A program made the position numbers and the translations under genes. From a virus, in IMG/VR virus record IMGVR_UViG_3300011116_000636, positions 1 to 44,380 of that record: DNA of 44,380 bases. One strand, written 5' to 3'. Positions 6,052 through 32,742 of the stretch are shown here, piece by piece. The stretch's first letter is position 1. Each line of letters opens with the position of its first letter. The notes below the pieces were generated by a model. It saw only the letters and a program-made list of their open reading frames with translations. It ran no database searches and had not been told where the DNA came from.

Positions 6052-6762
6052 ATGATAGTAGTTGGCACAACATTACATGCGTTTGTTATGGACAACGAGG
6101 ACCATTGGGGTTCATGGATGAGAAATGCGGAAAAAGTAAAGGAAGAATATCAGCATTTTGGAAATTGGACTGATGTAAAATACTTTGCTGCAATTCAAAT
6201 TGACTCTCGTGGTTTAGAGCCGTTTGGTCCATTTCTTAAAAGGCTTGAGGAAGTTGGAGGAGAGTTTTGGACATACTCTCTTGATGATGGTCGTACAGAA
6301 GTAACCACCAAAAACAGAATTCGCCACATTACTGTTGGTCAAAACCTTGTAAATGATTTTGCAATGTCAATACCGTCATGTACGCACATGTTGTTTATGG
6401 CTGCAGACACAATGCCACCAAACGACATTTTGCCTAAAATGTTAGAAATGAACCATCCTTTATGCGCTCCATATATCACTACATACGGACTGCGTGGACC
6501 AAGGGTTGATAAGTACTCATTTCCCGTAATGAACGCAATGGCTTCTGCTGCTGCAATTTTTATTGCTCGTGAGGTGTTTTCTGGAATTAGGTGGAGATGG
6601 GATATGGATAAAAACATGTCTGATGACCCATGCTTTCACCATGATGCTTTGCATTACTTAAAGATTCCAACCTACGTGCGCGAGGACTGTAAGGCTCAAC
6701 ATTTCCCAATATCAGTTGGGGCAATTGAAACCCGTGGTCATGATATGAAGGTACACAGGTGA
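6052..6762 (+). CDS. GT-A-type glycosyltransferase-like protein (236 aa)
   Basis: One of only three plus-strand genes. Residues 1-120 have the alternating strands and helices of a nucleotide-sugar-binding fold, and TRYxLFMAADTMPP-like text at about 113-123 (HMLFMAADTMPPNDIL) fits the metal-binding DxD region of family 2-type glycosyltransferases, followed by a typical PKMLEMNHPLCAPYITTYG segment. It would transfer a sugar to a protein, DNA base or surface glycan; the acceptor is unknown. An ideal AAGGAG precedes the ATG. It overlaps the epimerase gene by four bases (GTGA), so the pair probably makes and transfers a modified sugar. Confidence 0.65.
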   Translation: MIVVGTTLHAFVMDNEDHWGSWMRNAEKVKEEYQHFGNWTDVKYFAAIQIDSRGLEPFGPFLKRLEEVGGEFWTYSLDDGRTEVTTKNRIRHITVGQNLVNDFAMSIPSCTHMLFMAADTMPPNDILPKMLEMNHPLCAPYITTYGLRGPRVDKYSFPVMNAMASAAAIFIAREVFSGIRWRWDMDKNMSDDPCFHHDALHYLKIPTYVREDCKAQHFPISVGAIETRGHDMKVHR

Positions 6763-7622
6763 AAGTTTTAATTACTGGAGATGCAGGGTTTGTTGGAACC
6801 CATTTTAGAAAAGCACTGTCTGAACATGAAATTGTTGGAGTAGACATTAAAAATGGGCTAGATGCTAGGCATTTTTTTGCAACCGACAATACATATTTTG
6901 ATTTAGTGATTCACCTTGCCGCAATAGTTGGTGGACGAGCAACAATTGAAGGTTCTCCACTTTCTGTAGCGGTAGATTTAGCAATAGATTCTGATATGTT
7001 CCAATGGGCGTTAAAAACACGTCCAGGGAGAGTTGTTTACTTTTCTTCTTCGGCAGCATACCCAATTTATCTACAAAACCATAATTCAACTCATAAACTT
7101 ATTGAGTCTAATATAAATCTAGATGACGTTAATTCTCCAGATTTAACTTATGGTTGGGCAAAGTTAACAGGTGAAATGCTTGCTAAACATGCGGAAGATA
7201 AGGGTTTAAGAGTACACGTATTTAGACCATTCTCAGGGTATGGTGAAGACCAATCTCTTGATTACCCTTTTCCATCATTTATTGAACGGGGAGCAAAAAA
7301 AGAAAATCCATTCAAAATATGGGGAACTGGGAATCAAGTTAGAGACTTTATACATATTAGTGATGTTGTTAACGCAACCCTTGAAGCAGTGAAAAATGAT
7401 ATTGAAGGTCCTGTAAACCTTGGAACTGGTGTTCCTTGTTCTTTTAACCAATTGGCAGAAATGGTTACAAGGATTGCTGGCTACAACCCAGAGTTTGAAA
7501 GGATTATTGGTGCACCAGAAGGTGTTCAATACCGTGTGTGTAACCCATCAAAAATGCTTAGTTTTTATAAACCTAAGATATCGCTTGAGCAAGGTATAGA
7601 ATTGTCTTTAAAGAACAGATAA
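6759..7622 (+). CDS. NAD-dependent sugar epimerase/dehydratase (287 aa)
   Basis: An extended short-chain dehydrogenase. The nucleotide-binding motif is TGDAGFVG (residues 6-13), the DLVIHLAA strand follows at 48-55, the SSSAAY active-site serine region at 96-101, and the catalytic YGWAK at 131-135. RDFIHISDVVNATLEA and NLGTG in the C-terminal half are also typical. Length is close to GDP-fucose synthase or UDP-glucose 4-epimerase relatives (~300). It converts a nucleotide sugar; the exact substrate cannot be read. The GTG start overlaps the glycosyltransferase stop. Confidence 0.88.
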   Translation: MKVLITGDAGFVGTHFRKALSEHEIVGVDIKNGLDARHFFATDNTYFDLVIHLAAIVGGRATIEGSPLSVAVDLAIDSDMFQWALKTRPGRVVYFSSSAAYPIYLQNHNSTHKLIESNINLDDVNSPDLTYGWAKLTGEMLAKHAEDKGLRVHVFRPFSGYGEDQSLDYPFPSFIERGAKKENPFKIWGTGNQVRDFIHISDVVNATLEAVKNDIEGPVNLGTGVPCSFNQLAEMVTRIAGYNPEFERIIGAPEGVQYRVCNPSKMLSFYKPKISLEQGIELSLKNR

Positions 7623-9362: not shown

Positions 9363-9746
9363 TTATCTCACATCTGGGTCATATTGCTTGTTTTCAGTTT
9401 CGTCCCAATGCCAATCGTATACAACTGGTACGTAGTATTCTTTTCCTGTTGCGTATTCTGCATATTCGGCTGATTTTACACGATGGTGACCTTGGCCCAT
9501 TGTAAAATCTTTGTAATGACCGTGATTTAACATTATTGTTATAGGACGTTTAACCCCTTCTTCTAAAACACTATCTACTAAATCATTGTACGACCCGTCC
9601 TTTATTTCAGATTCTTTATTTACCCACGTATCTTCTAAAGTTTCTCCATCTGCTCTGTCAATAGAGTCAACAGTAAGGTCGTATATTTCCTGTGGTCGCA
9701 TAAACATGCGTAATTGGTCTTTATTTAAATGTTCGTGTGCGGGCAT
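9363..9746 (-). CDS. ParB/sulfiredoxin-fold protein with AHEHLN tag (127 aa)
   Basis: Residues 1-8, MPAHEHLN, are almost the same as the starts of the ADP-ribosyltransferase and the 96-residue protein at 14.1-15.0 kb. The rest matches the ParB-like N-terminal (Srx) domain: YNDLVDSVLEEGVKRPITIMLN, then FTMGQGHHRVKSAEYA with the hallmark GHHR at 86-89, and a VPVVYDW strand. In this superfamily the GxHR loop binds nucleotide (CTP in ParB). There is no DNA-binding helix-turn-helix, so it is not a full ParB. ATG 9746 is six bases after a TATCCT box. Confidence 0.65.
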   Translation of the reverse strand: MPAHEHLNKDQLRMFMRPQEIYDLTVDSIDRADGETLEDTWVNKESEIKDGSYNDLVDSVLEEGVKRPITIMLNHGHYKDFTMGQGHHRVKSAEYAEYATGKEYYVPVVYDWHWDETENKQYDPDVR

Positions 9747-9752
9747 AATACA

Positions 9753-9758
9753 AGGATA
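9753..9758 (-). promoter_or_regulatory. TATCCT box, leaderless-type promoter
   Basis: TATCCT on the minus strand lies six bases before the ATG at 9746, the same geometry as the TATACT boxes elsewhere. It would start the ParB-fold / 9200 / 8691 / 8077 run. Confidence 0.4.
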
Positions 9759-9771
9759 CAATAATGTGGGA

Positions 9772-10877: not shown

Positions 10878-11123
10878 TTATGGTTCTATGAAAATACACT
10901 CACCTGGACACTCTTCGGCAGACTCTATTACGTCACCAAGGCGGTCTTCTGCGAAAGAGGCTAAACCGCTTGCGCCTTCTGGATTGCCTCGCAGTTTGGA
11001 AAACACTTTCCCATTCTCTTGGACGTACGCCAACCCATCCTCCAGCATGATGAATACATCTGGTGCTATCTCCGCGCATAGGCCATCTCCAGTACATAAG
11101 TCTTGGTCAATCCATACTCTCAT
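10878..11123 (-). CDS. Ferredoxin, single cluster (81 aa)
   Basis: A small electron carrier. The cysteines are C10 and C16 in CTGDGLC, and C72 and C76 in ECPGEC, with IDQDLC at the start and GLAYVQENGK in the middle, the pattern of actinobacterial [3Fe-4S]/[4Fe-4S] ferredoxins that serve cytochromes P450. C76 is an alanine in many relatives, so the cluster type is unsure. The ATG overlaps the stop of the last of four consecutive paralogues (TAATG). Its codons look richer in G+C than its neighbours, suggesting capture from a host genome. Its redox partner is not visible. Confidence 0.88.
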   Translation of the reverse strand: MRVWIDQDLCTGDGLCAEIAPDVFIMLEDGLAYVQENGKVFSKLRGNPEGASGLASFAEDRLGDVIESAEECPGECIFIEP

Positions 11124-11860
11124 TAATAATGTATCTGGTTCATTAACTGCTCGGTGTTTAAATCATAATTCCATTCCGATTTGCCAGAACCTTCAAATTG
11201 TCCCATTCTTATAACGTGTGGCTTATGGTGTTTATTATTTTTATCAGTACTAATATTTACGCTATGATTCATGTAATCACTTGGGTTCATTGCATATGAT
11301 TCTCTGTCTACAACTTTTTTTCCAAAAGACGCCATTTTTGAAAATTCTGCAATCTGCTTGTGCAAAGAGTCCCAATCTGTATTATTGTTTATTTGTGGAA
11401 CTTTAATGATATGTTCTCCATTTGGAGGGTCACCCATGTATATAGGATGCGAGTCCTTGTCATGTTCAGTACCATAACTATACAAACCTTGTTTGGCAGA
11501 AGAACTGCCGTAACCATACTCCCAACTTTCAAGCGCTGTATAAGACGTTTTGTACATCAATGGGTGTTTTAAATATAAACTTGTTGAAGTTTTGTTATCA
11601 TCTAGAAAATCGTGTTCTATGAAAGCCACATTTCCACTTTCAAACGGAATATGTGCCTCAAGTCTAGTATTATGCAATACACTACGATAATGTTTTGTTG
11701 ACTTAAAACCTGCATTTTCTGCTGTTGCAAGTTCTAATTGTTTAAAGTTTGCTGGGAATAACTTACCACCAAGCACTATTCCACGATTATTAGATATATC
11801 AAAACCAGCGTCAGCAAACTTTCTAAGTGTTTCATTGATTTCTGTTATTTTAGACGACAT
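11123..11860 (-). CDS. Paralogue family member 1 (245 aa), unknown function
   Basis: One of five related genes (others start at 12590, 13382, 14100 and 16453). The shared N-terminal pattern reads here as INETLRKFADAGFDISNNRG then IVLGGKLFPANFKQLELA; the middle has HIPFESGNVAFIEH; the C-terminus ends WNYDLNTEQLMNQIHY, matching the (Y)NYD..TEQL ending of the others. No signal peptide or membrane segment and no known catalytic motif. Start ATG 11860 overlaps the upstream stop by eleven bases; a TTG at 11866 is the alternative. It is the most diverged member. Confidence 0.65.
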   Translation of the reverse strand: MSSKITEINETLRKFADAGFDISNNRGIVLGGKLFPANFKQLELATAENAGFKSTKHYRSVLHNTRLEAHIPFESGNVAFIEHDFLDDNKTSTSLYLKHPLMYKTSYTALESWEYGYGSSSAKQGLYSYGTEHDKDSHPIYMGDPPNGEHIIKVPQINNNTDWDSLHKQIAEFSKMASFGKKVVDRESYAMNPSDYMNHSVNISTDKNNKHHKPHVIRMGQFEGSGKSEWNYDLNTEQLMNQIHY

Positions 11861-12590
11861 TGCCAAGTCTTCGCAGTTGTTCAGTTTTGATGTCGTATGC
11901 GTGTTCTATTACGTTGTAATTAGAACTAGGAGTAGCACTATGAATTTTTGTATATACCATATGTGGTGGGTCAGCATTCTTACTCCCTAAACCACCACCC
12001 AAATGTTTGTATTTGTGAAATTCAGAAAAATCATCTTTATTCATTATCTCATCTGGATTGTCACGCATTTGTTTAGAATTTTTAGAATTATTCCAACTTC
12101 GTTTATAACCTTTTGTAGGAACAGAACTTACTCGTTGTATAAAGTCTGAAAACTCTTTGGGACTTTTGGGGTTTAAGTTATCTGTTTTAAACATCTCTTC
12201 ATCGTTTGTTGGAGGAAGGATACTGGTATCCTTTGGATAATAAGAATACCCTTCTGTACGTCCATCATTCCAACTATTATCTGGTCCTAGGTCTGTCCAT
12301 TTATGTGGATAGTTTACTTCAAATGATGCATTTAAAACTCCTTCAGGATGGTGTAAACCATGTCCAAACACAAACAATCTGTGCCCGTTTTCAAGAGGAA
12401 TATTAAAACTTACCATACCAGATTCTTTGCTGTTTGTTGTTGAAAACTCAATTTGTTTATTATAAGCGGGATATGTTTTGCCGTGGATTGAAACACCACT
12501 TGGGTGTAACATATCAATGCCCAACTCTTGTTTAAGGTTACGCATGTGCCCGTGAAGGCGTTCAAAGTTAGATGGTTCGTTTTTAGGCAT
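11850..12590 (-). CDS. Paralogue family member 2 (246 aa), unknown function
   Basis: Family pattern: LHGHMRNLKQELGIDMLHPS followed by GVSIHGKTYPAYNKQIEFST, FNIPLENGHRLFVFGHGLHH in the second quarter, and IEHAYDIKTEQLRRLGNVV at the end. The middle is polar and Trp-containing (SFEVNYPHKWTDLGPDNSW). The ATG at 12590 follows TATACT by five bases, so this starts a second unit (12590 to 10878, with member 1 and the ferredoxin). Confidence 0.65.
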   Translation of the reverse strand: MPKNEPSNFERLHGHMRNLKQELGIDMLHPSGVSIHGKTYPAYNKQIEFSTTNSKESGMVSFNIPLENGHRLFVFGHGLHHPEGVLNASFEVNYPHKWTDLGPDNSWNDGRTEGYSYYPKDTSILPPTNDEEMFKTDNLNPKSPKEFSDFIQRVSSVPTKGYKRSWNNSKNSKQMRDNPDEIMNKDDFSEFHKYKHLGGGLGSKNADPPHMVYTKIHSATPSSNYNVIEHAYDIKTEQLRRLGNVV

Positions 12591-12595
12591 TACAC

Positions 12596-12601
12596 AGTAT
12601 A
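12596..12601 (-). promoter_or_regulatory. TATACT box, leaderless-type promoter
   Basis: CGTTTATACTGTGTA precedes the ATG at 12590 with a five-base gap. It splits the paralogue array into two transcription units. Confidence 0.5.
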
Positions 12602-12611
12602 AACGATTGGA

Positions 12612-13382
12612 TTAAGATTCATTAGATGGAGTTCCAAAAACGTCTTGATATGGACGTAATTGTTCAGTTTTAGTATTGTAGTTATAGAAAGCATGTTCTG
12701 TATCAACACCATAAACTGTTACGTTATGCGGATGCTCTGCTGGATGAAGTTTAAAGTTTTGACGATGTTCGTTTAATTCATCTTCAGTTAGTTCAAGGTC
12801 ATCTCGGTCAGCCCATGAAATTTCTGCATAAGGTTTTATTTTTTTAAAGTGTTGTAAACCTTCTTTACCTTCAAAATCATATGTTCCTTGATAAGGTTCT
12901 TTTCCCCACATACTTAAAACTTCATGAGCAACAGAAATTGGACCCCTACTGCTGTGTAAACTCATATGCTCTTCATAAAATGGGTTAGGACGTTGTTTGT
13001 CAAAATTGTTTAGATTTTCACCAAAACTTGCACTGTAAGCATCTTCACTTTTATGAAGAGCAGGCCCATTCCTATATGTTTTTTTACCTTCTTTATTTAG
13101 ATGTATGGTAGGTACATGCATTTGCATGCTAAGAGTATTGTCTCTTCCTACATAAGTGGATGCATGAACTTTTAAACCATTTTCAATAGGAATATAAAAA
13201 CGAGATTCCGTGGCTTCAGCATCAAGATTAGGATTACGTGAACGTCCTATAGTAATAAGTTTATGCGTTGCTGGATAAACCCTTCCGCCAATCTCTACTC
13301 CGTGTGGAACTGTTAAGTCAACACCGTGTGTTTCTTTTAAAAACCGAAAGTGTTCATGTAGTCGTGAGAATGCTTCACTCAT
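12612..13382 (-). CDS. Paralogue family member 3 (256 aa), unknown function
   Basis: Start ATG 13382 (MSEAFSRLHEHFRFLKETHG) is chosen because the MS(E/D)xF opening is shared with the members at 14100 and 16453, and it overlaps the upstream stop by eight bases; a GTG at 13391 is possible. Family pattern: GVDLTVPHGVEIGGRVYPAT, FYIPIENGLKVHASTYVGRD and EHAFYNYNTKTEQLRPYQD. The longest member, with an extra C-terminal tail (VFGTPSNES). Last gene of the long unit from 16998. Confidence 0.65.
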   Translation of the reverse strand: MSEAFSRLHEHFRFLKETHGVDLTVPHGVEIGGRVYPATHKLITIGRSRNPNLDAEATESRFYIPIENGLKVHASTYVGRDNTLSMQMHVPTIHLNKEGKKTYRNGPALHKSEDAYSASFGENLNNFDKQRPNPFYEEHMSLHSSRGPISVAHEVLSMWGKEPYQGTYDFEGKEGLQHFKKIKPYAEISWADRDDLELTEDELNEHRQNFKLHPAEHPHNVTVYGVDTEHAFYNYNTKTEQLRPYQDVFGTPSNES

Positions 13383-14100
13383 CTTTGTCACCCCAAATGT
13401 GTTTGTTTTTCCAATTGTATTCCATAGGTTTCAATGATTCTGTTTCTATATCATAAGAATACACTCCAAAACCACCGTCAGGTGTGTGATGAATTACTGA
13501 TAGCGTGTCTGGGTTGTGTGTTGGCTCAGTAACAAAAGCGCGATGTTTTGATTTTTCACTATCTGTCATAGGACGTGAGTCATCTCCGTACTCACTGTGT
13601 ATAGATTTGGATATAAAACTCTCACCTGGCTCATTATTCCAGTTTTTTAACTGTGCGTGTAAATGTTCCCAATTTGTTTTACCATTTTTGGGTGGGACGA
13701 TAGTCCAAGACTTATGGTTGAAAAGTGCTTCTCTGTTAGTTGTCCCTTCTCCATAACTATGTAAAATCTTAGTTCTGTAGCCATTTATAAGAAGAGTTTC
13801 GTAATCACCTATTCTTGCATTATTGTTTTGGTAACCACTTGGGTTTGCTAACGATACATTAAGTTTTTTACTTCCTGAAGCGTTAACTTGGTGATAAACT
13901 TTTGCTACGTTTTCACTTTCATACGGAATATCTAAATATGCTGCCCTATTATCACCAGCATTTTTTGGTATGGTTAATCCCTTTTGTTTCGCTGGGTATA
14001 GTTTGTCGTTTAAAACAACACCACGAGGGTTTGTAAGGTCTATGCCGTGGCTTTTGTGAAAGCGCAACTCTTCTTGAAGTTTTGAAAAAAGGTCAGACAT
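13375..14100 (-). CDS. Paralogue family member 4 (241 aa), unknown function
   Basis: MSDLFSKLQEELRFHKSHGI opening, GIDLTNPRGVVLNDKLYPAK, LDIPYESENVAKVYHQVNAS and a GVYSYDIETESLKPMEY ending; the usual TEQL is TESL here. ATG 14100 overlaps the stop of the upstream gene (TAATG). The N-terminal helix, the (I/V)DLT.P.GV element and the Asn/Glu-containing second strand are what tie the family together; the central ~120 residues are much more variable. Confidence 0.65.
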   Translation of the reverse strand: MSDLFSKLQEELRFHKSHGIDLTNPRGVVLNDKLYPAKQKGLTIPKNAGDNRAAYLDIPYESENVAKVYHQVNASGSKKLNVSLANPSGYQNNNARIGDYETLLINGYRTKILHSYGEGTTNREALFNHKSWTIVPPKNGKTNWEHLHAQLKNWNNEPGESFISKSIHSEYGDDSRPMTDSEKSKHRAFVTEPTHNPDTLSVIHHTPDGGFGVYSYDIETESLKPMEYNWKNKHIWGDKDE

Positions 14101-14390
14101 TACTTCATGCTCCTACGAATTTGGTCCATCTTGTATTGTGATTGTGGGTCCTTTTGAATGGTGTCCCAGTTTTCTTTGGCTTGCGCTACATGCTTATCAG
14201 AAGCAGCAGGCCAGTCCGTCCATGCTTCTTTATTTTCTGGAGTAACAATAGACCAACGGTCAGGGTCGTCAGAAAGAGGGGCATCTCCTTCTTTGGCACC
14301 ATGTGCATAGGCAGAACCTGAAGGAGTTTGGGCAATACGAAATGCTTTACCATGATGCTGTTCCCAGTTGATGTGTTCGTGTGCAGCCAT
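14100..14390 (-). CDS. Unknown small protein with AHEHIN/NWEQH tag (96 aa)
   Basis: MAAHEHINWEQHHGKAFRIA start: the first eight residues match the start of the next gene (ART) and of the ParB-fold protein, and INWEQH matches the 5354-5695 protein. The body is short and Trp-rich (DDPDRWSIVTPENKEAWTDW, ENWDTIQKDP). TAATG overlaps on both sides place it inside a tightly coupled block. It links the two tag variants and may be a minimal carrier of the tag. Confidence 0.6.
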   Translation of the reverse strand: MAAHEHINWEQHHGKAFRIAQTPSGSAYAHGAKEGDAPLSDDPDRWSIVTPENKEAWTDWPAASDKHVAQAKENWDTIQKDPQSQYKMDQIRRSMK

Positions 14391-15019
14391 TACTTTTCAG
14401 GCCATTTCTCAGGAATAGATTCAGGTAAGACAAACCACTCTGACTCAAGACGCTTGTTTCTACCAACTGTTCTAGGTATACCACCTATCTCAGCCAAAGG
14501 TACTCCACGAACCGTGTTTGGTTTTGCTTTATATATTTGTCTTTTGTTTATAGTTCCAAGGGCTGTAAATGAACGAGCGACATGCCTGTCATCGGTAAAT
14601 GACAACGGACTAGTTTTTTGCTTACCAATATCTTCTGAAGGGCTACGTCCAGCACTTCTATACAATGCGGTAGGGTTTGGTCTGCTATTGTCACGAACTA
14701 CTTTTGTTAAGTCTCGTAATGTTGCGGCTACTTGAGTTTCATTACCAATTAAATGGCTACTCCAGTTACCTTGGTAATCCTTTAAAAATCTAGAAACATT
14801 ACCTTCTGTAAGTTTTTGAGCGTGGCTTTCAGCAAAAGGAACATGCTCGTGTCTACGATTTGTAAATGATTTATCAAATTCATCCATTTCTTCTGGAGTC
14901 ACTAATGTGCTATTAATCTTTGCTACCTTGCCAGAAAGAGCCTGGTCTACAGTCATTCCGTGTAGATTCTCAAATTGTTCTGCAAATAAATAATTGTTTA
15001 AATGTTCGTGTGCAGCCAT
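14390..15019 (-). CDS. Putative ADP-ribosyltransferase, R-S-ExE class (209 aa)
   Basis: Would transfer ADP-ribose from NAD to host proteins, usually on arginine. The three signature parts are in order in the C-terminal half: R121 in ALYRSAG, the STS-like SPLSFTDDRHVARSF at 138-151, and the ExE of LESEWFVLP (E192, E194), with the IYKAKPNTVRG strand between. The N-terminal half is helical and starts with MAAHEHLNN. Phage enzymes of this class include Alt, ModA and ModB of T4; Alt is packaged in the head and injected. TAATG overlaps fix the start. Weak points: no experimental support, and the RG of the usual YRG is RS. Confidence 0.7.
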   Translation of the reverse strand: MAAHEHLNNYLFAEQFENLHGMTVDQALSGKVAKINSTLVTPEEMDEFDKSFTNRRHEHVPFAESHAQKLTEGNVSRFLKDYQGNWSSHLIGNETQVAATLRDLTKVVRDNSRPNPTALYRSAGRSPSEDIGKQKTSPLSFTDDRHVARSFTALGTINKRQIYKAKPNTVRGVPLAEIGGIPRTVGRNKRLESEWFVLPESIPEKWPEK

Positions 15020-15564
15020 TACTTAGCCTTCTTCTTAGCATTTTTAGTAAGGGTGTCTCTATTTAAATAAATGTCATCTGTTCGGATGTTGAATTGTTGA
15101 GTGCTTAGATGCTTTACAGCCCCCGTTCGCATCAGGTGGTGAGGTATCACATATGATATGGAACCTGGGTCCTCCCACCTGTTTCTGTATTTATTTACTT
15201 TGTCTTGACGATTTTCTTTTACTTGCATTGCCTCAACATAATCATTTGGGACGTCTTGATGTTCCGAATAACCTTGTTCGTGAGGGTCTTCATAAGTCAT
15301 TAATGATAAATGTTTTTTTGGAATTTCGTAAGCATGCATATACGCTTTAGTTTCTGGTTCTTCGTCGTCAAGATAAGCGTTACCATCTCTGTCACTTTGT
15401 TGAACACCAACCCTTTCCAAGGCGGCATTTATTGTTCCAGCGTGGAACCCTAACTCGGTATTGTGTCCAGCCCCCCAAATGTGTGTAATATCTTCATGTG
15501 CTTCATGTGGAGGCTCTTCATTAAGACTTCCGTGATAAACAATTATACTCTTAGACTTTTTCAT
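15019..15564 (-). CDS. Possible second ADP-ribosyltransferase-like protein (181 aa)
   Basis: Residues 7-12 read IIVYHGS and a GFHAGTINAALERVG segment follows near 40-52, then AYMHAYEIPKKHLSLMTY. A YHG(S/T) start plus (F/H)HAGT..AA..R and an aromatic-rich strand is the pattern I associate with H-Y-x class ADP-ribosyltransferase-like folds found in phages and polymorphic toxins. The third catalytic residue cannot be placed. It ends in a Lys-rich tail (LTKNAKKKAK) like the 59-residue protein next to it. Coupling to the R-S-ExE enzyme supports a shared role. Confidence 0.45.
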   Translation of the reverse strand: MKKSKSIIVYHGSLNEEPPHEAHEDITHIWGAGHNTELGFHAGTINAALERVGVQQSDRDGNAYLDDEEPETKAYMHAYEIPKKHLSLMTYEDPHEQGYSEHQDVPNDYVEAMQVKENRQDKVNKYRNRWEDPGSISYVIPHHLMRTGAVKHLSTQQFNIRTDDIYLNRDTLTKNAKKKAK

Positions 15565-15743
15565 TACTTAGCCTTCTTTGCTTTATGCTTCTTTAATAAA
15601 TAAGCAGGGTCACGTTCAACAAATCCTACATTTTTATGTATTTCATCTATGTCAATGGCTTCATCATCTATGTAAGTGTGCCCTTTAGGGTTTTCGTCAG
15701 TTTTCCAACGAAACTGAGGTCCAAGATGCCTAGGGTCAGTCAT
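15564..15743 (-). CDS. Small basic protein (59 aa)
   Basis: Frame from ATG 15743, MTDPRHLGPQFRWKTDENPK, to KKHKAKKAK. Both ends overlap neighbours as TAATG. HLGPQF is also the last six residues of the 17016-17357 protein (DRSHLGPQF), an unexplained shared peptide. The Lys-rich tail resembles that of the preceding ART-like protein. No domain recognised. Confidence 0.6.
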   Translation of the reverse strand: MTDPRHLGPQFRWKTDENPKGHTYIDDEAIDIDEIHKNVGFVERDPAYLLKKHKAKKAK

Positions 15744-16453
15744 TATCGTTCCCTCAACTGTTCTGTCAACACATCATAATTATAAAATTTAGAGTTACCA
15801 TATGCGGGATGTGAGTGATTATATGAAATGTTTTTTGGAAATTCGTTAGGTTCAAGTTTGCTATTTTCTTTGTGTTCAGTAAGTTCTTCGTTATTTAAAT
15901 TACGATATCCTCCACCTTGCATATATCTATCATTAGTAGCAAATCCATGATAAGGACGTTTAGAAAAATGTGCTATTGCATCATATGGATTTTTATGGTT
16001 AGAGTCAATAGATATCCATTCTTCGGAATGGTTTTTTTTAAAAATAGCCTCGTAATCTTCTTTGGGTGCTTTGTATTCAGGCAAGCCAAACTGAACCAAT
16101 TCTGTTGTGCTAGGTGAGTGTTGATAACCATAAGAAACTTTTTCAGTCCCCATTCGGTGTATTACAGGAGCCATAACACTTAAGTGCAGAATGTTATTAT
16201 GCCCCCTACCCCCATTCAAGTGTGTTCCACCGTGTGAGTATAACCCCCCTCTTACGTGTAGTCCATTTTCAAGAGGAATATGAAAACTACCATTATAACC
16301 ATCAGTTTCTTTTGGGTTGTCTGTAGTTAAGTTTTTACCAATTGCTGGGTATATTTTTGTGCCAATTTTTACACCATGTGGGTGAGTAAGGTCAACTCCA
16401 TTTTCTTTAATCCTACGCAATGTGTTTTGAAGGGTAATAAAATGCTCAGACAT
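15743..16453 (-). CDS. Paralogue family member 5 (236 aa), unknown function
   Basis: MSEHFITLQNTLRRIKENGV opening, GVDLTHPHGVKIGTKIYPAI, FHIPLENGLHVRGGLYSHGG and a KFYNYDVLTEQLRER ending. Separated from the other four by the ART genes, so the family has either spread or been split by insertion. His- and Gly-rich middle (GGTHLNGGRGHNN). TAATG overlaps on both sides. Confidence 0.65.
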   Translation of the reverse strand: MSEHFITLQNTLRRIKENGVDLTHPHGVKIGTKIYPAIGKNLTTDNPKETDGYNGSFHIPLENGLHVRGGLYSHGGTHLNGGRGHNNILHLSVMAPVIHRMGTEKVSYGYQHSPSTTELVQFGLPEYKAPKEDYEAIFKKNHSEEWISIDSNHKNPYDAIAHFSKRPYHGFATNDRYMQGGGYRNLNNEELTEHKENSKLEPNEFPKNISYNHSHPAYGNSKFYNYDVLTEQLRER

Positions 16454-16998
16454 TACTGCTTCCTACGCCTGGGAGTAAGTGGAATACCTGCATCACGCCT
16501 TTTAATCAATGTTTCAGCCACAAATTGTGCGCGGCTCAGCGACGGAAAAGATTTTGGAAACCCTGGACGTTTTTCATACAAGTTTTTTACCAAATCATCA
16601 ACTTCAATGGTTGCTCCAATGTCTTCTGGCAGGGAATCTACACGGTCTACTCCCCTCTCTTCCATAAAATCAACGGAATTGCCAATAAAATCAGCCATTT
16701 CCTTCAATCCAGAGTATTCTTGAACGTGGTCTAAAAAATAACGCCTGACATTGGAGTCGTTTCTGGCAATTTGGGCTTTGATTGACGCTCCATACTCACG
16801 ACCAGTCGCTGGGGAAGTGATTATATTAGGGTCAGAACCCATTTTGTAGTTACTTTTTCCTTCATTTCCCTCTATTGGCTGGGCATGAAAGAAGGCTCTA
16901 GCAAAATTTGGGTTTCTATCTGGAACAGTTCCATAAGCATCTTCCATAGAGTGCCAAGCAGGCCATCTAATCCACTGAGGTCCGTTTGGTTTAGGCAC
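16453..16998 (-). CDS. Unknown protein, first gene of the effector-like operon (181 aa)
   Basis: GTG 16998 start, six bases after TATACT; protein begins MPKPNGPQWIRWPAWHSMED. The C-terminal half is helical (LKEMADFIGNSVDFMEERGV, SRAQFVAETLIKRRDAGIPL) and ends in a basic TPRRRKQ. No family recognised. It leads a nine-gene, end-to-end coupled run (16998 to 12612). Confidence 0.6.
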   Translation of the reverse strand: MPKPNGPQWIRWPAWHSMEDAYGTVPDRNPNFARAFFHAQPIEGNEGKSNYKMGSDPNIITSPATGREYGASIKAQIARNDSNVRRYFLDHVQEYSGLKEMADFIGNSVDFMEERGVDRVDSLPEDIGATIEVDDLVKNLYEKRPGFPKSFPSLSRAQFVAETLIKRRDAGIPLTPRRRKQ

Positions 16999-17004
16999 TC
17001 ACAT

Positions 17005-17010
17005 AGTATA
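17005..17010 (-). promoter_or_regulatory. TATACT box of the long effector-like operon
   Basis: GTCTATACTATGTGA leads into GTG 16998 with a six-base gap. It sits in the 17-base space after the stop of the 17016-17357 gene. Confidence 0.5.
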
Positions 17011-17015
17011 GACTA

Positions 17016-17357
17016 TTAAAACTGTGGTCCCAAGTGAGAGCGGTCCTCTAACTGCTTCATACGCCATAAGCGCTCTTGTCGTTCGTAATCGGCATCATGA
17101 GAGGTATTCTCCATTGGAGAGGCCCTATGACCCTTAAAAGGGTGGTCTGTGGCACGTGGGTCATCATGACGCCATTGACCGATGTTTACATTCATTGGAT
17201 AGGGTAGTCCATGCACATAACGATTTTCTCGTTGCCCTGGTGAACCTTGTTCAAAACTATGAGTTGTCTCTTTTAATTGGAAATTCTCAGAACGAATGTT
17301 TAATCCACATTCCGCGCATGTGGGTTGAGTTATCGTTGGGTCGTTAATATCTGACAT
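17016..17357 (-). CDS. Unknown protein with CxxC knuckle (113 aa)
   Basis: MSDINDPTITQPTCAECGLN start with a CAEC knuckle near residue 14; there is no clear second pair, so a zinc site would need a partner. Polar, His-rich middle (PMNVNIGQWRHDDPRATDHP) and the end LEDRSHLGPQF. ATG 17357 is six bases after TATACT. First gene of the low-GC cassette, next to the GC-rich block. Confidence 0.6.
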   Translation of the reverse strand: MSDINDPTITQPTCAECGLNIRSENFQLKETTHSFEQGSPGQRENRYVHGLPYPMNVNIGQWRHDDPRATDHPFKGHRASPMENTSHDADYERQERLWRMKQLEDRSHLGPQF

Positions 17358-17562
17358 AAACCTAGTATAGGGCTATTTGCCCGTTTACGCTGTAACCTGG
17401 AATAGGGCTATTGAAGGTAGTGGATGTAAGCGAGGAATCGGCCCTACCCCCCAGTCCCGAAAAAACGTCGGCTTAAGGGTGGGGGGGCTTCGCCAGTCCC
17501 TGCCTCCCCTACCCTCAGCCTACCACACCGACCACCTGCTTAGTCAAGTGGCGTGTGTCACA
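17358..17562. other. Intergenic junction with C-run/G-run and ATAGGGCTATT repeats
   Basis: No gene seen. ATAGGGCTATT occurs at 17367-17377 and 17402-17412, and TAGGGCTAT again at 18532-18540. A CCCCCC run near 17450 and a G7 run near 17484-17490 could pair around AAAAAACG. The segment marks the switch from AT-rich cassette to GC-rich early region. Confidence 0.5.
17364..17369 (-). promoter_or_regulatory. TATACT box, leaderless-type promoter
   Basis: CCCTATACTAGGTTT precedes ATG 17357 with six bases between. The box overlaps the first ATAGGGCTATT repeat, so a factor that binds the repeat could control it. Confidence 0.5.
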
Positions 17563-17739
17563 TCACGTTCTGAGTGCCTCCACCTCCTTGTCAAGCCATG
17601 CCATGCACCTGTTCACCCATGCCAACTGCTCGCCGTCCATTGCGTACCCTGCGCCCTCCAGCCAGTCGTGAAGCCCAGCCAAGTCTGCATAGAGAAGCAC
17701 ACGAGCGTTCTCCTCTGCGAGTGTGTAGAGGCTCGCCAT
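17563..17739 (-). CDS. Small unknown protein (58 aa)
   Basis: ATG 17739 overlaps the upstream stop (TAATG). MASLYTLAEENARVLLYADL start; two helices with Trp (LHDWLEGAGYAMDG, LAWVNRCMAWLDKEVEALRT). Amphipathic, no domain recognised. Base composition is GC-rich like the rest of this block. Confidence 0.6.
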   Translation of the reverse strand: MASLYTLAEENARVLLYADLAGLHDWLEGAGYAMDGEQLAWVNRCMAWLDKEVEALRT

Positions 17740-18155
17740 TAGATTACCTCCCATGACTTGTCGTTGGTTGCCTCTGTCGGGACTGCATGCCAGCCTGCAG
17801 GTACGAAGCCATGACTGACCAGTACCGTGACGATTGCCTGCATGGTTGCCTTTAACTGCGCTGTGGTCGCCTTGAGGTCGTCCATTGTTTCACGTGAAAC
17901 ATTGCGCTCGTCCATCTCCTCCTGCACAATCTCACGAACTCCGTCGTCAGTGATTGCGTTGTCGTCCGTCACGTAGTCCGACATGTCAAAGTAGTCAGTC
18001 GGGTCTGCGTAACCTGAGAAGTGGTCACTAATCTTGTCTGAGATGTCGTCAGACTTTACGTACTCGTCAAGGTCTACCGTGACGTTCTCCGCCACAATCT
18101 CCTTGATGTAATCGGCAAGACTATCGTCAAACCGTGCTGTGAACTCTACTGTCAT
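17739..18155 (-). CDS. Acidic unknown protein; coding region carries a perfect parS (138 aa)
   Basis: Strongly acidic N-terminal part (FDDSLADYIKEIVAENVTVD, YFDMSDYVTDDNAITDDG), then a helix (DDLKATTAQLKATMQAIVTVL) and a HGFVPAGWHAVPTE end. The peptide NVSRET is encoded by the parS palindrome at 17886-17901. GGAGG precedes the ATG. A DNA-mimic or structural role could be guessed from acidity but nothing proves it. Confidence 0.65.
   Translation of the reverse strand: MTVEFTARFDDSLADYIKEIVAENVTVDLDEYVKSDDISDKISDHFSGYADPTDYFDMSDYVTDDNAITDDGVREIVQEEMDERNVSRETMDDLKATTAQLKATMQAIVTVLVSHGFVPAGWHAVPTEATNDKSWEVI
17886..17901. other. Perfect parS site
   Basis: TGTTTCACGTGAAACA, the exact 16-base palindrome bound by bacterial chromosomal ParB proteins (Bacillus, Streptomyces and mycobacterial sites share the TTTCACGTGAAA core). 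It lies inside a coding region. A chance 16-base match in a window this size is very unlikely. Confidence 0.85.
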
Positions 18156-18228
18156 TGTTGCCTCCCTAAAGGCTCTAAGTGCTTGGCTGATTGCCTCGCT
18201 AACTCCAGTCTTGCATATGCACCCCCCT

Positions 18229-18238
18229 GATTGTCAAG
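18229..18238 (-). promoter_or_regulatory. Operator/stoperator-like motif
   Basis: CTTGACAATC in the direction of transcription. No good -10 at the usual distance, so it may be an operator only. It lies in the leader of the 17739-18155 gene. Confidence 0.45.
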
Positions 18239-18295
18239 TGAAACAGTGTGACATAGGTCACTCGTTTACTGGGCAATCAACTGGGTCGTAATCCC

Positions 18296-18327
18296 AGCCT
18301 ATCACACCACCCCCCTCAACTGTCAAG
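18296..18327 (-). promoter_or_regulatory. Promoter with operator-like -35 (18.3 kb)
   Basis: TTGACA at 18321-18326, nineteen bases, TAGGCT at 18296-18301. It would drive the parS-bearing gene 17739-18155 through a ~135-base leader that contains the second motif. Confidence 0.5.
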
Positions 18328-18469
18328 TGACGTTGGTCACACTGTTACAGGTTGCGACGACCTCCTGACCTGATAACGTGGGGATTGGACTGCATGCCAT
18401 TTGACTCGGCACGCTGTCACAACTGGAGGACATAAGGATAGTAGAGCCGATACTATACACACGGCGTAC

Positions 18470-18515
18470 ACACGTACATGCGTTCGTGCGTACATGCGTA
18501 CATGCGTACATGCGT
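18470..18515. repeat. Tandem 8-base repeat (GCGTACAT)n
   Basis: Three exact head-to-tail GCGTACAT units at 18488-18511, with imperfect CGTACATGCGTTCG copies on the left and GCGTTCG on the right. Alternating purine-pyrimidine throughout. Non-coding, just downstream of the His-rich gene. Confidence 0.75.
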
Positions 18516-18536
18516 TCGCTCATGCCTATATTAGGG

Positions 18537-19046
18537 CTATGAGTTCGTGACATGAGTAGTATCGCGCCTATGGGTAGGCTGTGGGTCATCTCCCCCTACC
18601 GTATCATTACTATCCCCCTCGTGCGCGTGCATATGCTCGTGCGCGTGCGTGCTTGCAGAGGCGTCCACGAGTGCGCTCATGAGTGAGTGTGTCTCGCGCC
18701 TGTATGCGTGCGCGTATGCGCGTGCCCATGCGTACGTGCGTGTGTGGTCGTCGTGCGCGTGGTCGTGTGTGTGGTCGCTATAGACCTCCTCCCACACCTC
18801 CAATGGGTTAGGCATGTCGTACAACCACTGCTCTACTGAGTGGTCGTATGCTGTCAGCCATGCTCGGCACTCCTCTACCGTGTGGTCGCTCTCAAACTCA
18901 AAGGATTGATAAGCATGCGCCTCTGCCAACCATGTTGCTACCTCCTCTGCCTTGTCTCTATCTTGTGCCCACTTCTCGTAGTACTTGTATCTCGGCGTGG
19001 TCGTGGTCGTGTTGATTGTTTCACGTGGAACATTGTTCTCAGCCAT
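18537..19046 (-). CDS. His-rich low-complexity protein (169 aa)
   Basis: Start ATG 19046 (MAENNVPRETINTTTTTPRY) is set by an eight-base overlap, ATGGCTGA, with the upstream gene. The N-terminal part is normal and Trp/Glu-rich (YKYYEKWAQDRDKAEEVATW, AWLTAYDHSVEQWLYDMP). From about residue 95 the sequence becomes His/Asp/Ala repeats (DHTHDHAHDDHTRTYAWARA, ASTHAHEHMHAHEG), possibly metal-binding. The DNA here is almost pure alternating GC/GT/AT, so the repeat may serve the DNA rather than the protein. NVPRET is encoded by the second parS. Confidence 0.6.
   Translation of the reverse strand: MAENNVPRETINTTTTTPRYKYYEKWAQDRDKAEEVATWLAEAHAYQSFEFESDHTVEECRAWLTAYDHSVEQWLYDMPNPLEVWEEVYSDHTHDHAHDDHTRTYAWARAYAHAYRRETHSLMSALVDASASTHAHEHMHAHEGDSNDTVGGDDPQPTHRRDTTHVTNS
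18619..18777. repeat. Alternating purine-pyrimidine tract
   Basis: Long runs such as GTGCGCGTGCATATGC, GCGTGCGTGC, TATGCGTGCGCGTATGCGCG and ACGTGCGTGTGTGG, broken by short interruptions. Together with 18470-18515 this gives ~300 bases prone to left-handed or unwound DNA, lying within 1 kb of both parS-like sites. Confidence 0.6.
19017..19032. other. Second parS-like site, one mismatch
   Basis: TGTTTCACGTGGAACA differs from the parS palindrome at one base (A to G in the right half). It lies 1.13 kb from the perfect site, just inside the start of the His-rich gene, also in coding DNA. Confidence 0.7.
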
Positions 19047-19398
19047 GAGTGTCTCCTTCACACATGGCACACAACACGCTACCGTCAGGGTAGATATGTC
19101 CACCCTCTCCGTACTCACTCATGTCCAGTGTCTCTTGGCACTTGGCGCAATTAGTTGAGGGACAATCCTCGTGCATGTCGTCAAGTGCTCTCTCGCAATC
19201 GCAGAGGTCTCTCTCTCCGTGTTTCAAGTGTCCAAGTCTCGCGCAAAGTTGTTTATATGCAGGCATATCGTCAATAACCTCATTATCGTCTGCGTCTCTG
19301 CCCTCTAACTCCCACATGGCAAGATGAGTAGTGCAGAATATCAACTCGCGCACTTGTCTCACCTTATCGTGCTCTAAACAACGTTCACACTCAGCCAT
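19039..19398 (-). CDS. Multi-zinc-finger protein (119 aa)
   Basis: Starts MAECERCLEHDKVRQVRELI at ATG 19398 (eight-base ATGGCTGA overlap). Three cysteine clusters: CERC with CTTH at about residues 3-25, a DLCDCE region near 66, and CAKC with CAMC near the end. This spacing suggests two or three zinc ribbons. Phage small zinc proteins often contact RNA polymerase or DNA; no specific target can be read. Confidence 0.65.
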   Translation of the reverse strand: MAECERCLEHDKVRQVRELIFCTTHLAMWELEGRDADDNEVIDDMPAYKQLCARLGHLKHGERDLCDCERALDDMHEDCPSTNCAKCQETLDMSEYGEGGHIYPDGSVLCAMCEGDTHG

Positions 19399-19804
19399 AA
19401 CGTACCTCACCTAACAAGATGAGTTGCACTACGGCGTCGTAGTCAATCGCGTCCCAGTCCAAGTCGTAATCGTCCAACACGTTGAGGACAATAATATCCT
19501 TAACCATGTCGTCTCTCAACTGCTCTTTGAGTGTTTTGACACCCTCTGGAGTTGTGCCCATTAATTTGAGCCAGTCGGCTACGATTGTCTCATTGATAAA
19601 GAGAGGCTTGCCGTCAGTCCAAGCCTCCTCGTCTGACAAGTCGTCGCCTCGCTCGTAGAGCGTGACGCTCGCTGTTTCTGTCTCGTCTGACCACGTATAG
19701 TCACCTTTGCCAACTGCCCAGCATGAGGTGAAACCACCCTCGTACATGCCTGAGACAATATCTGCACCGTGTGACTTGATTGTCTTACCTGTCATTGTTG
19801 TCAT
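19391..19804 (-). CDS. Unknown acidic protein (137 aa)
   Basis: MTTMTGKTIKSHGADIVSGM, a beta-rich N-terminal half (GGFTSCWAVGKGDYTWSDET, ASVTLYERGDD) and a helical C-terminus (VKTLKEQLRDDMVKDIIVLN). ATG 19804 has an ideal AGGAGG seven bases upstream and its own promoter at 19823-19853. No family recognised. Confidence 0.65.
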   Translation of the reverse strand: MTTMTGKTIKSHGADIVSGMYEGGFTSCWAVGKGDYTWSDETETASVTLYERGDDLSDEEAWTDGKPLFINETIVADWLKLMGTTPEGVKTLKEQLRDDMVKDIIVLNVLDDYDLDWDAIDYDAVVQLILLGEVRYG

Positions 19805-20175
19805 TATTTACCTCCTGTGGTAATACTAGCATTGTCAGTAGTAGTATTGTCAAGTGCCTTCAAGGCTCTCGCAATATGCCAGTCGCCTCGTGCTTCGTGA
19901 CCTTCTGCGAGCATTTTGACGTACTCAGGGTACTCACTCTTAGACTTCACTTCACGAACACCAAGAAACTGCCCTGTGGTATTCTCAATTACGTGAACAG
20001 ATAAAGTGCCGTCCTCTTTGAGCCTCAATCGTACAGTAATTAACTCGTTCAGGCTAATACCTGACATGTCGGTACTGATAGTTACCAGCACCCCACTGTC
20101 TCCTCCAGCCTTTAAGTCACCTTGTGTAACCGTGACTTCAATCCCTGTCTCTTGGCTAATACCTTTAGTCCTCAT
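19804..20175 (-). CDS. Unknown protein (123 aa), promoter of next gene in its 3' end
   Basis: MRTKGISQETGIEVTVTQGD, beta-rich (GVLVTISTDMSGISLNELIT, GTLSVHVIENTTGQFLG) then a helix (YPEYVKMLAEGHEARGDWHI). The last residues, ALDNTTTDNASITTGG, are the translation of the next gene's promoter repeat; the same happens in the gene upstream. AGGAGG before ATG 20175. No family recognised. Confidence 0.65.
   Translation of the reverse strand: MRTKGISQETGIEVTVTQGDLKAGGDSGVLVTISTDMSGISLNELITVRLRLKEDGTLSVHVIENTTGQFLGVREVKSKSEYPEYVKMLAEGHEARGDWHIARALKALDNTTTDNASITTGGK
19811..19854 (-). promoter_or_regulatory. Early promoter repeat P1
   Basis: TTGACA (19848-19853), 19-base gap, TAGTAT (19823-19828) preceded by TGC (extended -10), then AGGAGG (19811-19816). 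One of three near-identical copies; it drives the 19391-19804 gene. Confidence 0.7.
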
Positions 20176-20719
20176 TGTTGTTACCTCCTGTACTCAGACT
20201 AGCATTGTCAGTAGTAGTATTGTCAAGTCCTAACGTGTGACACTTGTCAAGTGCCTCCAGTGTTCTTGTGCCGAGAGCATAGAGGTCGTAAGGGTCAATC
20301 CCTGCCCGACTTGCGATACGCTTGCGTAAGACCTCTTGGCGAGTATTGTCACTTGCCTTGCGTTCTTGGCTCTCGCGCTCGTAGACAGTGCGCTCGTCGC
20401 ACAATGTCTCAAGTGTCTTTGAGGTGGAGTAGACTCCTTCAATCTCTCGCGCCGACAATGGGACGAGGGACTTAGTAATCTCATATGTCACTGGCTCTGT
20501 ACTATTGAACCTGACACGAGCCTTACTAATGAACTCTACCGAGTACGTTGTGACAGTGCGTGGAGTAATGCGAGAGCCATATCGGTCTCTCTCCACTTGT
20601 GCAACGTGTACCTCAGTGATACGTCCTAAGTGTGAAGCCTTATACGAGTATCGTGGTCTGACATTGAACAACGCCGTTGGATTAGCGTCCAGCACTCCTT
20701 TGATATCTGAGGCGTTCAT
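20165..20719 (-). CDS. Unknown protein (184 aa)
   Basis: ATG 20719 overlaps the upstream stop as ATGA; upstream extensions to 20806 are rejected. Starts MNASDIKGVLDANPTALFNV. Beta-rich middle (GRITEVHVAQVERDRYGSRI, TYSVEFISKARVRFNSTEPV), Arg-rich helical end (QEVLRKRIASRAGIDPYDLY). The tail LDNTTTDNASLSTGG is translated promoter sequence (P2). Function unknown. Confidence 0.65.
   Translation of the reverse strand: MNASDIKGVLDANPTALFNVRPRYSYKASHLGRITEVHVAQVERDRYGSRITPRTVTTYSVEFISKARVRFNSTEPVTYEITKSLVPLSAREIEGVYSTSKTLETLCDERTVYERESQERKASDNTRQEVLRKRIASRAGIDPYDLYALGTRTLEALDKCHTLGLDNTTTDNASLSTGGNNNED
20191..20227 (-). promoter_or_regulatory. Early promoter repeat P2
   Basis: TTGACA (20221-20226), 19-base gap, TGC-TAGTCT (20196-20201), AGGAGG just after. 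Almost the same as P1 and P3. A further ACTTGTCAAG lies next to it at 20242-20251, inside the coding region. Confidence 0.7.
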
Positions 20720-20853
20720 CTCCTTGTCGCCTTCTTGTGTGCCTTGCGTACACACTTGCCACACGGCGTGTTCGTGAAGTATCCGAGTGAGTCCTCGTGA
20801 CCACACTTTGCAATATGCTTAACTGGCTCTGTACTTGTGGTTGTGGTTGTCAT
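20716..20853 (-). CDS. Small zinc-knuckle protein (45 aa)
   Basis: ATG 20853 follows AGGAGG at a good distance; a longer frame to 20922 would run through promoter P3. MTTTTTSTEPVKHIAKCGHE, then CGH and CGKC knuckles and a basic end (VRKAHKKATRR). Probably one zinc site and nucleic-acid contact. Confidence 0.65.
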   Translation of the reverse strand: MTTTTTSTEPVKHIAKCGHEDSLGYFTNTPCGKCVRKAHKKATRR

Positions 20854-20867
20854 CTTATTACCTCCTG

Positions 20868-20904
20868 TACTCAGACTAGCATTAACGATAGTAGTATTGT
20901 CAAG
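20868..20904 (-). promoter_or_regulatory. Early promoter repeat P3
   Basis: TTGACA (20898-20903), 19-base gap, TAGTCT (20873-20878), AGGAGG following. Third copy of the P1/P2 repeat; it drives the zinc-knuckle / 184-residue pair. Confidence 0.7.
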
Positions 20905-20909
20905 TGACA

Positions 20910-21641
20910 TTATTCCCACCACACCATGTCTGTCACAACGCCATTAACGTCGTACTTGCGTGGTTGGCTGTCACACTCAATCCAGTCCAATGCAGACCTC
21001 GCGCTTGTCATGTCGTCCATGACTTGATAGCCCACTCTCTCGCAGTCCTTTGAGAGTTGTCGCAGTGTCTTGTTGATGTCAGTCATGCACTGCCACATTG
21101 CCAGTTGCCCAGCAGTCATATTGCCCTTGTCGGACGTGCCTGCATAACTTGAGGACATATCCTCTTTGAGATATACCACAATGTCATTACGCGAGCCTCC
21201 GTCAGTGCCAATGAGGTCTCCGTTCTCGTTATAGAACTCCAAATTAAAGGAATTATAGTGCGAGTAATGATTACTAATACTACTGCGAACAAGACGTACT
21301 TCGTTCAGACTCCACCCATGCAAGAAGTAGTTTGCACCCCAGTTGAGTTTATGCGCCTCGTCACGATAGAGACGTCCGTAGAACGCCACTCCGTCGCCCT
21401 GACAATGGTTAAGTGAGAACTCTACTTTGAGGTCGCTAAACTTGTCCCATGTCGTTTCGTCAGTAAGCACACTGAGAACGTGGTCTTGGATTGTCTCCTC
21501 AACTTCGTAGTCGTTGATACACTCGTACTCAACTTCGCGCACTCGCTGTACTACTGCCTTCTTTACCTCGTCCGACAACTCGTCGTAGGTATAAACTACC
21601 TTAGTCCGAGTTACCTCTTTGCCATTAATGATTGTGTCCAT
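20910..21641 (-). CDS. Conserved-looking phage protein (243 aa)
   Basis: MDTIINGKEVTRTKVVYTYD with a helix (ELSDEVKKAVVQRVREVEYE) and a core LKVEFSLNHCQGDGVAFYGR, a CQGDGVAF motif I have seen in other phage early proteins of unknown function. Acidic; ends DWIECDSQPRKYDVNGVV. GGAGG precedes ATG 21641. The message begins with the long hairpin at 21664-21726. Confidence 0.65.
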   Translation of the reverse strand: MDTIINGKEVTRTKVVYTYDELSDEVKKAVVQRVREVEYECINDYEVEETIQDHVLSVLTDETTWDKFSDLKVEFSLNHCQGDGVAFYGRLYRDEAHKLNWGANYFLHGWSLNEVRLVRSSISNHYSHYNSFNLEFYNENGDLIGTDGGSRNDIVVYLKEDMSSSYAGTSDKGNMTAGQLAMWQCMTDINKTLRQLSKDCERVGYQVMDDMTSARSALDWIECDSQPRKYDVNGVVTDMVWWE

Positions 21642-21663
21642 TGTGTCCTCCCTAGTTGTTGTG

Positions 21664-21726
21664 ATAAGTAGAGGTGCTACCGACTACGGTAGTCTTACTC
21701 GTTTATCATTGCGAACCTCTACTTAT
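21664..21726 (-). ncRNA. Structured 5' leader (long stem plus inner hairpin)
   Basis: ATAAGTAGAGGT (21664-21675) is perfectly complementary to ACCTCTACTTAT (21715-21726). Inside, CTACCG and CGGTAG (21677-21692) pair around ACTA. The promoter at 21732-21761 would start transcription at the edge of the stem, so the message of the 20910-21641 gene has this at its extreme 5' end. It could stabilise the mRNA, bind a regulator or work as a small RNA. Confidence 0.6.
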
Positions 21727-32343: not shown

Positions 32344-32742
32344 TTACTGAAGGAGTTGGTACAAAATAGTAAATAAATCAAAGTCTTTGTCCCCAATATT
32401 AGGTACAACATCAATATTTTTACTCTGTTTTATAACGTTTGTATGAACAGTAATGCATTCTTCACAACGACAACCTTGTCTATACCTTGTTGGTGTGCCG
32501 TGCGGTCTCAATGCAGTTTTTTTTGGTTTACTTTTAAATACACTTCTTTCTAATGTAGTTAATCCGCCCCACATACCCCAATTTTCACCAATACCATCTA
32601 TGAGGCACTCTTTCCACACAGGACAAATGTTACAAACTTCACGAGCAACTGCGTGATATTGTTCTTGATTTTCCGCATCTAATGGCGGATACCAAATGTC
32701 TACAAGTTTCCCTTTACAACGAGCGTATTCACGCCATTCCAT
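32344..32742 (-). CDS. WhiB-family protein with Cys-rich C-terminal extension (132 aa)
   Basis: Cluster cysteines C9 (YARC), C37 and C40 (VCNIC), C46 (KEC), then WGMWGG at 55-60, all with normal spacing. After the usual basic stretch (FKSKPKKTALRP) comes HGTPTRYRQGCRCEECITVH, a Cys-rich element common in actinobacterial proteins and often fused to WhiB in phages. A second sigma-binding regulator beside the 26.6 kb copy. It lies just upstream of the terminator and is the last gene of the 36.7-32.3 kb run. Confidence 0.9.
   Translation of the reverse strand: MEWREYARCKGKLVDIWYPPLDAENQEQYHAVAREVCNICPVWKECLIDGIGENWGMWGGLTTLERSVFKSKPKKTALRPHGTPTRYRQGCRCEECITVHTNVIKQSKNIDVVPNIGDKDFDLFTILYQLLQ

Follow-up and report, generated by a model that had tools for sequence, protein, structure and literature searches.

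Capture of a host ParB protein by a phage is described for phi29, whose genome Spo0J, the ParB of its host, is reported to entrap in the spore (Meijer et al. 2005, according to PMC9437464). In the searchable literature, such capture is documented only for this phage and for sporulation. The phi29 genome carries four parS-type sites, some of them inside coding genes. The DNA analyzed here, a 44,380-base IMG/VR virus record that represents a partial phage genome (the window), resembles phi29 in having several host-consensus parS sites and no HTH_ParB domain, and the second of its two sites has the same sequence as each of the four in phi29. As in phi29, no phage-encoded ParA or ParB was found within the available sequence. 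As to the non-integrating way of life of the phi29 type, a search directed at tyrosine integrases found none in the window, which is partial, or in its relatives, and one relative, G002, has genes of a virulent type. The two phages differ in host and build. phi29 infects an endospore former in which the sites reportedly serve spore entrapment, whereas the window phage has a presumed actinobacterial host and is a larger tailed phage with its two sites in small variable genes.

The integrative mobilizable element SGI1 carries parS mimics that hijack the parABS system of IncC plasmids, and ParB binding, stabilization and displacement of a competitor have been reported for it (PMC10954446). SGI1 is a mobile element whose stolen parS sites depend on ParB supplied in trans, as those of the window phage would; it exploits a plasmid rather than the chromosomal system. 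Mycobacteriophage RedRock (PMC7157519) is, as the window phage is presumed to be, an actinobacteriophage with centromere sites and no integrase. However, RedRock encodes both ParA and ParB, neither of which was found in the window sequence, and its parS consists of arrays of 8-bp direct repeats, whereas the window holds single 16-bp chromosomal palindromes. The chromosomal parS sites of Actinobacteria (i.e., Corynebacterium and Mycobacterium) share the 16-bp sequence of the window sites and also occur more than once within about 1 kb, although the window sites are on a phage, lie within coding sequence and have no linked parAB. A survey of host-type parS across phages was not found in the searchable literature, which was mostly without subscription papers. 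The window locus is a presumed actinobacterial variant that extends the phi29 case, and the breadth across phages is the new part.

Two parS-type sites in a partial phage genome

The window contains two 16-bp sites of the parS type:

17886..17901, no strand assigned: parS site 1, TGTTTCACGTGAAACA, a perfect 16-bp palindrome
19017..19032, no strand assigned: parS site 2, TGTTTCACGTGGAACA, which reads TGTTCCACGTGAAACA on the minus strand

Both TGTTTCACGTGAAACA and TGTTTCACGTGGAACA are exact fits to TGTTNCACGTGAAACA, the Bacillus/Corynebacterium parS consensus, which is listed for both B. subtilis and C. glutamicum in a review (PMC7022226); the perfect palindrome is given as the mycobacterial parS (PMC2346475). 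The first-pass annotation reported the exact consensus at 17886-17901, and its sequence and coordinates were correct. It also placed the second site correctly at 19017-19032, but described it as one base off, whereas the site fits the published consensus (PMC7022226) exactly and is identical to the sites of phi29. The two sites lie 1.13 kb apart; such close spacing of several sites is expected of chromosomal-type parS, as is the 16-bp match to TGTTNCACGTGAAACA that both have.

No further site at up to 3 mismatches was found in the 44,380-base window besides these two, and shuffled versions of the window gave a mean of 0.46 matches at this loose threshold. Under Markov models of order 1-3, the window would be expected to contain 3-7e-5 exact copies of TGTTTCACGTGAAACA and 2-3e-4 copies of other TGTTNCACGTGAAACA forms, which puts the joint probability of finding both at about 6e-9 to 2e-8 if independence is assumed. 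The earlier assertion that these 16-base matches are beyond chance in 44 kb is supported by this joint chance of about 1e-8, and the identity of the two sites as parS-type sequences is secure. About 21 bases are common to sites 1 and 2, and one site could therefore be a copy of the other.

The phage, its relatives and the genes holding the sites

One gene of the window bears on the identity of the host:

32344..32742, minus strand: WhiB-family gene (PF02467, E 5e-12)

Because the phage carries this gene, we infer an actinobacterial host, whose ParB specificity is assumed. Host assignment by means of the epimerase gene gave just two weak matches, to unrelated bacteria. Nucleotide relatives of the site region were not found among catalogued phages, and none were confirmed by a scan with the site-1 protein; a gene adjoining the site region led to G002 and G001 only. 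G002 (87,101 bases) encodes a terminase, portal, major head protein, tape measure, helicase, DNA polymerase and UvsX, a gene set that is virulent-type, and most window genes match its right half in collinear order.

HTH_ParB and ParA-type ATPases were not found in the window (a partial genome), in G001 or in the 87-kb G002, in agreement with the earlier statement that no parA or full parB is visible. A 132-aa protein at 9363-9761 (minus strand) gave a sub-threshold ParB_N-like match (E 0.11) and is not a ParB by these tests. A phage-borne ParABS was rejected, as HTH_ParB and ParA were not found in the sequence available for the window and relatives, and an extrachromosomal lysogen with its own partition system is unsupported. 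The proposal that the sites segregate a lysogen is likewise not supported: a search confined to tyrosine integrases found none in the known part of the window or in its relatives, and the gene set of the 87-kb G002 is of the virulent type.

Elsewhere in the window, a 4Fe-4S ferredoxin-like protein (10878-11123, minus strand; Fer4_15, E 6e-16) is 94% identical in G002. A two-gene cassette opposing the main gene direction (6052-7622, plus strand) pairs an NAD-dependent epimerase gene with a gene whose product is 97% identical in G002, and a series of paralogous proteins of about 240 aa with no assigned function (11123-16453, minus strand) cross-match one another in G002. Positions 16900-21700 form a GC-rich module of small unassigned genes (50% vs 41%), and the same module is rich in GC in G002 as well (53% vs 41%).

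The sites lie in two genes, each with a segment that differs from G002:

17739..18155, minus strand: site-1 gene, 138 aa, reading NVSRET at the site, no assigned function, G002 orthologue 51% identical
17884..17907, minus strand: 24-nt in-frame segment with site 1, which the G002 orthologue lacks (12 residues of the protein alignment)
18537..19046, minus strand: site-2 gene, 169 aa, His-rich, reading NVPRET, no assigned function, orthologues in G002 and G001
19011..19046, minus strand: 12-codon N-terminal extension MAENNVPRETIN with site 2, missing from the G002 orthologue

The minus-strand reading of genes 17739-18155 and 18537-19046 reproduced the NVSRET and NVPRET peptides noted by the first-pass annotation. 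Site 2 corresponds to codons 5-10 of the 169-aa gene, the G002 orthologue of which is 40% identical, and the existence of orthologues in a relative indicates that the site-bearing genes are both real. No site at up to 2 mismatches occurs in G002 or G001, and as these closest relatives lack the sites, the phage group can do without them. Loss of the sites with the peptides kept, which had been named as evidence against ParB recruitment, is not the pattern observed: in G002 the site and the peptide are both gone, with the remainder of each protein kept. Since both segments are missing from the G002 orthologues, the peptides NVSRET and NVPRET fall outside what is conserved in the two proteins. 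The comparison points to short DNA segments, consisting of little more than parS, that may have been gained in the window or lost in G002; it is based on one relative, G002, the sole one covering both genes.

Between the site-bearing genes lies a 381-bp non-coding stretch (18156..18536) with 8-bp repeats, partly conserved in G002, which might be guessed to be an origin or regulatory region. The gene at 18537-19046 (minus strand) also contains a His/Thr/Asp-rich repeat stretch, DHTHDHAHDDHTRTY, kept in kind and expanded in G002. A further non-coding stretch, at 17362-17440, has TAGCCCTAT-type repeats, is near-identical to G002 while the neighboring genes diverge, and is likely regulatory.

parS-type sites across viral collections

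Scans of 2.9 million IMG/VR viral contigs located the exact consensus at 120 or more loci and a longer variant at 119 or more; combined, the two scans place the exact parS palindrome at 191 distinct loci at least. Extrapolation from the overlap of the two scans, assuming the same scan order, gives an estimate of about 600 parS loci in all. In the whole collection, a scrambled control palindrome was found at 5 loci and a control palindrome of identical dinucleotide make-up at 11. Within loci selected for one parS, there were 67 further parS sites vs 0 control sites. Among catalogued phages, at least 578 parS places were found in at least 198 of 50,697 records, by a query that accepts 17-18-base matches and counts palindromes on both strands; both control palindromes were found in none of the 50,697 records. 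Among the records behind these parS counts are GenBank/RefSeq duplicates, relatives that cluster together and Listeria virome contigs lacking annotation, so the counts are not numbers of independent events.

Matches were found in phages of Microbacterium, Listeria, Gordonia, Arthrobacter, Bacillus, Lactobacillus and Enterococcus, in Microviridae phages and in others. Escherichia and Salmonella phages were not among the parS matches listed, an observation that is suggestive only, as per-host denominators were not available; E. coli belongs to a small set of lineages that lack parS (PMC7083940). Phages of Mycobacterium and Streptomyces were also unseen among the matches listed (the ten most frequent names plus sampled rows) even though the consensus of their hosts is similar, which suggests that the parS strategy is not universal. 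The variants look partly host-matched, with TCC forms in Pseudomonas and Bacillus phages: TGTTCCACGTGAAACA is found mainly in these two groups, and the TGTTCCACGTGGAACA form in Pseudomonas phages. The latter also occurs in ten Klebsiella phage records, those listed being jumbo phages, which indicates some background.

A search for HTH_ParB (PF17762) that was positive in 9 of 14 control genomes gave no match in 50 large IMG/VR contigs bearing parS or in 18 records of catalogued phages that carry parS-type sites. A Terminase_6N match was obtained for 15 of the 50 parS-bearing contigs tested, and the remainder may be fragments, carry other terminases, or be partly host DNA or prophage.

Several phage groups provided signs of selection on the sites. 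In B103 and Chedec 11, the site lies within a fully conserved block of 22 nt in a gene that is 68% identical over about 500 nt. One gene of Microbacterium phages carries the perfect palindrome in Quhwahvirus, a TCC/GAA form in RobsFeet and a TCC/GGA form in Tyrumbra, i.e., the peptide varies while parS is kept. At codon level, Microbacterium phages show 6/6 identity vs 0.69-0.76 elsewhere for the three distinct phages, a result that favors selection but is weak by itself. Two Gordonia phage genera have sites near the right end, and their differing, poorly alignable places suggest independent gain. The inovirus bajarodino virus 3 (PQ006097.1) has six copies of the exact parS palindrome within 6.2 kb and was without an HTH_ParB match, and the Pseudomonas syringae phage phiPsa374 (KJ409772.2) has one TGTTCCACGTGAAACA close to each end, in its direct terminal repeats. 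The Butyrivibrio phages Arian (MN882551.2) and Bo-Finn (MN882552.2) have six parS places each, corresponding to three sites counted on both strands, and the place listed is annotated as a promoter.

Proposed recruitment of host ParB and competing explanations

It is likely, and we hold this with considerable confidence, that the window sites were selected to bind host ParB, a binding that we infer from the sequence. If the two sites are functional host-type parS, the chromosomal ParB of the host would load at them after infection and slide onto the adjoining phage DNA, making the phage genome a decoy centromere. Phage DNA might then be treated like a chromosome origin, kept at the nucleoid or origin pole, and inherited by the two daughter cells under delayed lysis, as reported for phi29 and Spo0J. 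We lean slightly towards a phage that would load host ParB and benefit by positioning or segregation with the host nucleoid in a delayed or carrier infection. Recruitment of host ParB, as proposed in the first-pass annotation, stands as the best reading of parS-type, non-chance sites with no known ParA or ParB, while the lysogen route attached to it is unsupported. The reading is strengthened by the collection-wide enrichment over matched controls and by the phi29 precedent.

The same ParB loading could benefit the phage through harm to the host cycle rather than carriage of its DNA, with replicating phage DNA multiplying parS, titrating host ParB and disturbing origin segregation and division. 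parS and copy number would suffice for this, it would fit a virulent phage, neither a tyrosine integrase nor partition genes were found in the available sequence, and the parS copies of SGI1 destabilize a competitor likewise (PMC10954446). However, two sites per genome are few unless the copy number is high, and parB is non-essential in several actinobacteria (PMC7022226), so that titration may gain little; we consider this explanation rather unlikely. It is distinctly improbable that the main role of ParB on phage parS would be to recruit host SMC-ScpAB and organize phage DNA for replication or packaging. ParB does load SMC at parS in C. glutamicum (PMC7083940), and the terminal-repeat sites hint at a genome-end role in phiPsa374, but site position varies widely among phages. 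Segregation, ParB titration and SMC recruitment are not mutually exclusive, and the latter two are live rivals.

Palindromes of 16 bp are typical operators, and the sites could serve a transcription regulator of phage or host origin that has no relation to ParB, as the promoter annotation of one Butyrivibrio phage parS place might suggest. This is very doubtful, as both window sites lie within coding sequence and enrichment of the exact chromosomal parS word extends over phages of unrelated gene content, whereas palindromes of equal composition are not enriched. Chance, or the passive capture of a functionless scrap of a host parAB region, draws on the lack of sites in the closest relatives and on the VSRET-type parS readings that occur in host parA genes. 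Nevertheless, a joint chance of about 1e-8, the placement of two sites in two genes with no other host sequence adjoining, and the conservation of the motif within other phage groups, with multiple copies per genome, leave it the least probable of these explanations.

On balance, host-consensus parS without ParB is probably a widespread, convergently evolved strategy, shared by tailed phages, phi29-like phages, ssDNA inoviruses and microviruses of hosts with chromosomal ParABS. If this is true, ParB of the host would commonly serve phages as a cofactor, non-sporulating hosts included, and the window would be a presumed actinobacterial case with parS placed in frame within genes. The enrichment suggests that ParB capture is common and extends to phages whose hosts do not sporulate and to filamentous phages persisting in the cell. 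Phage use of bacterial centromere machinery can be tested with isolated phages of Gordonia, Microbacterium and Bacillus, and parS, which is easy to scan for, provides a DNA feature by which phages can be linked to hosts that have ParB.
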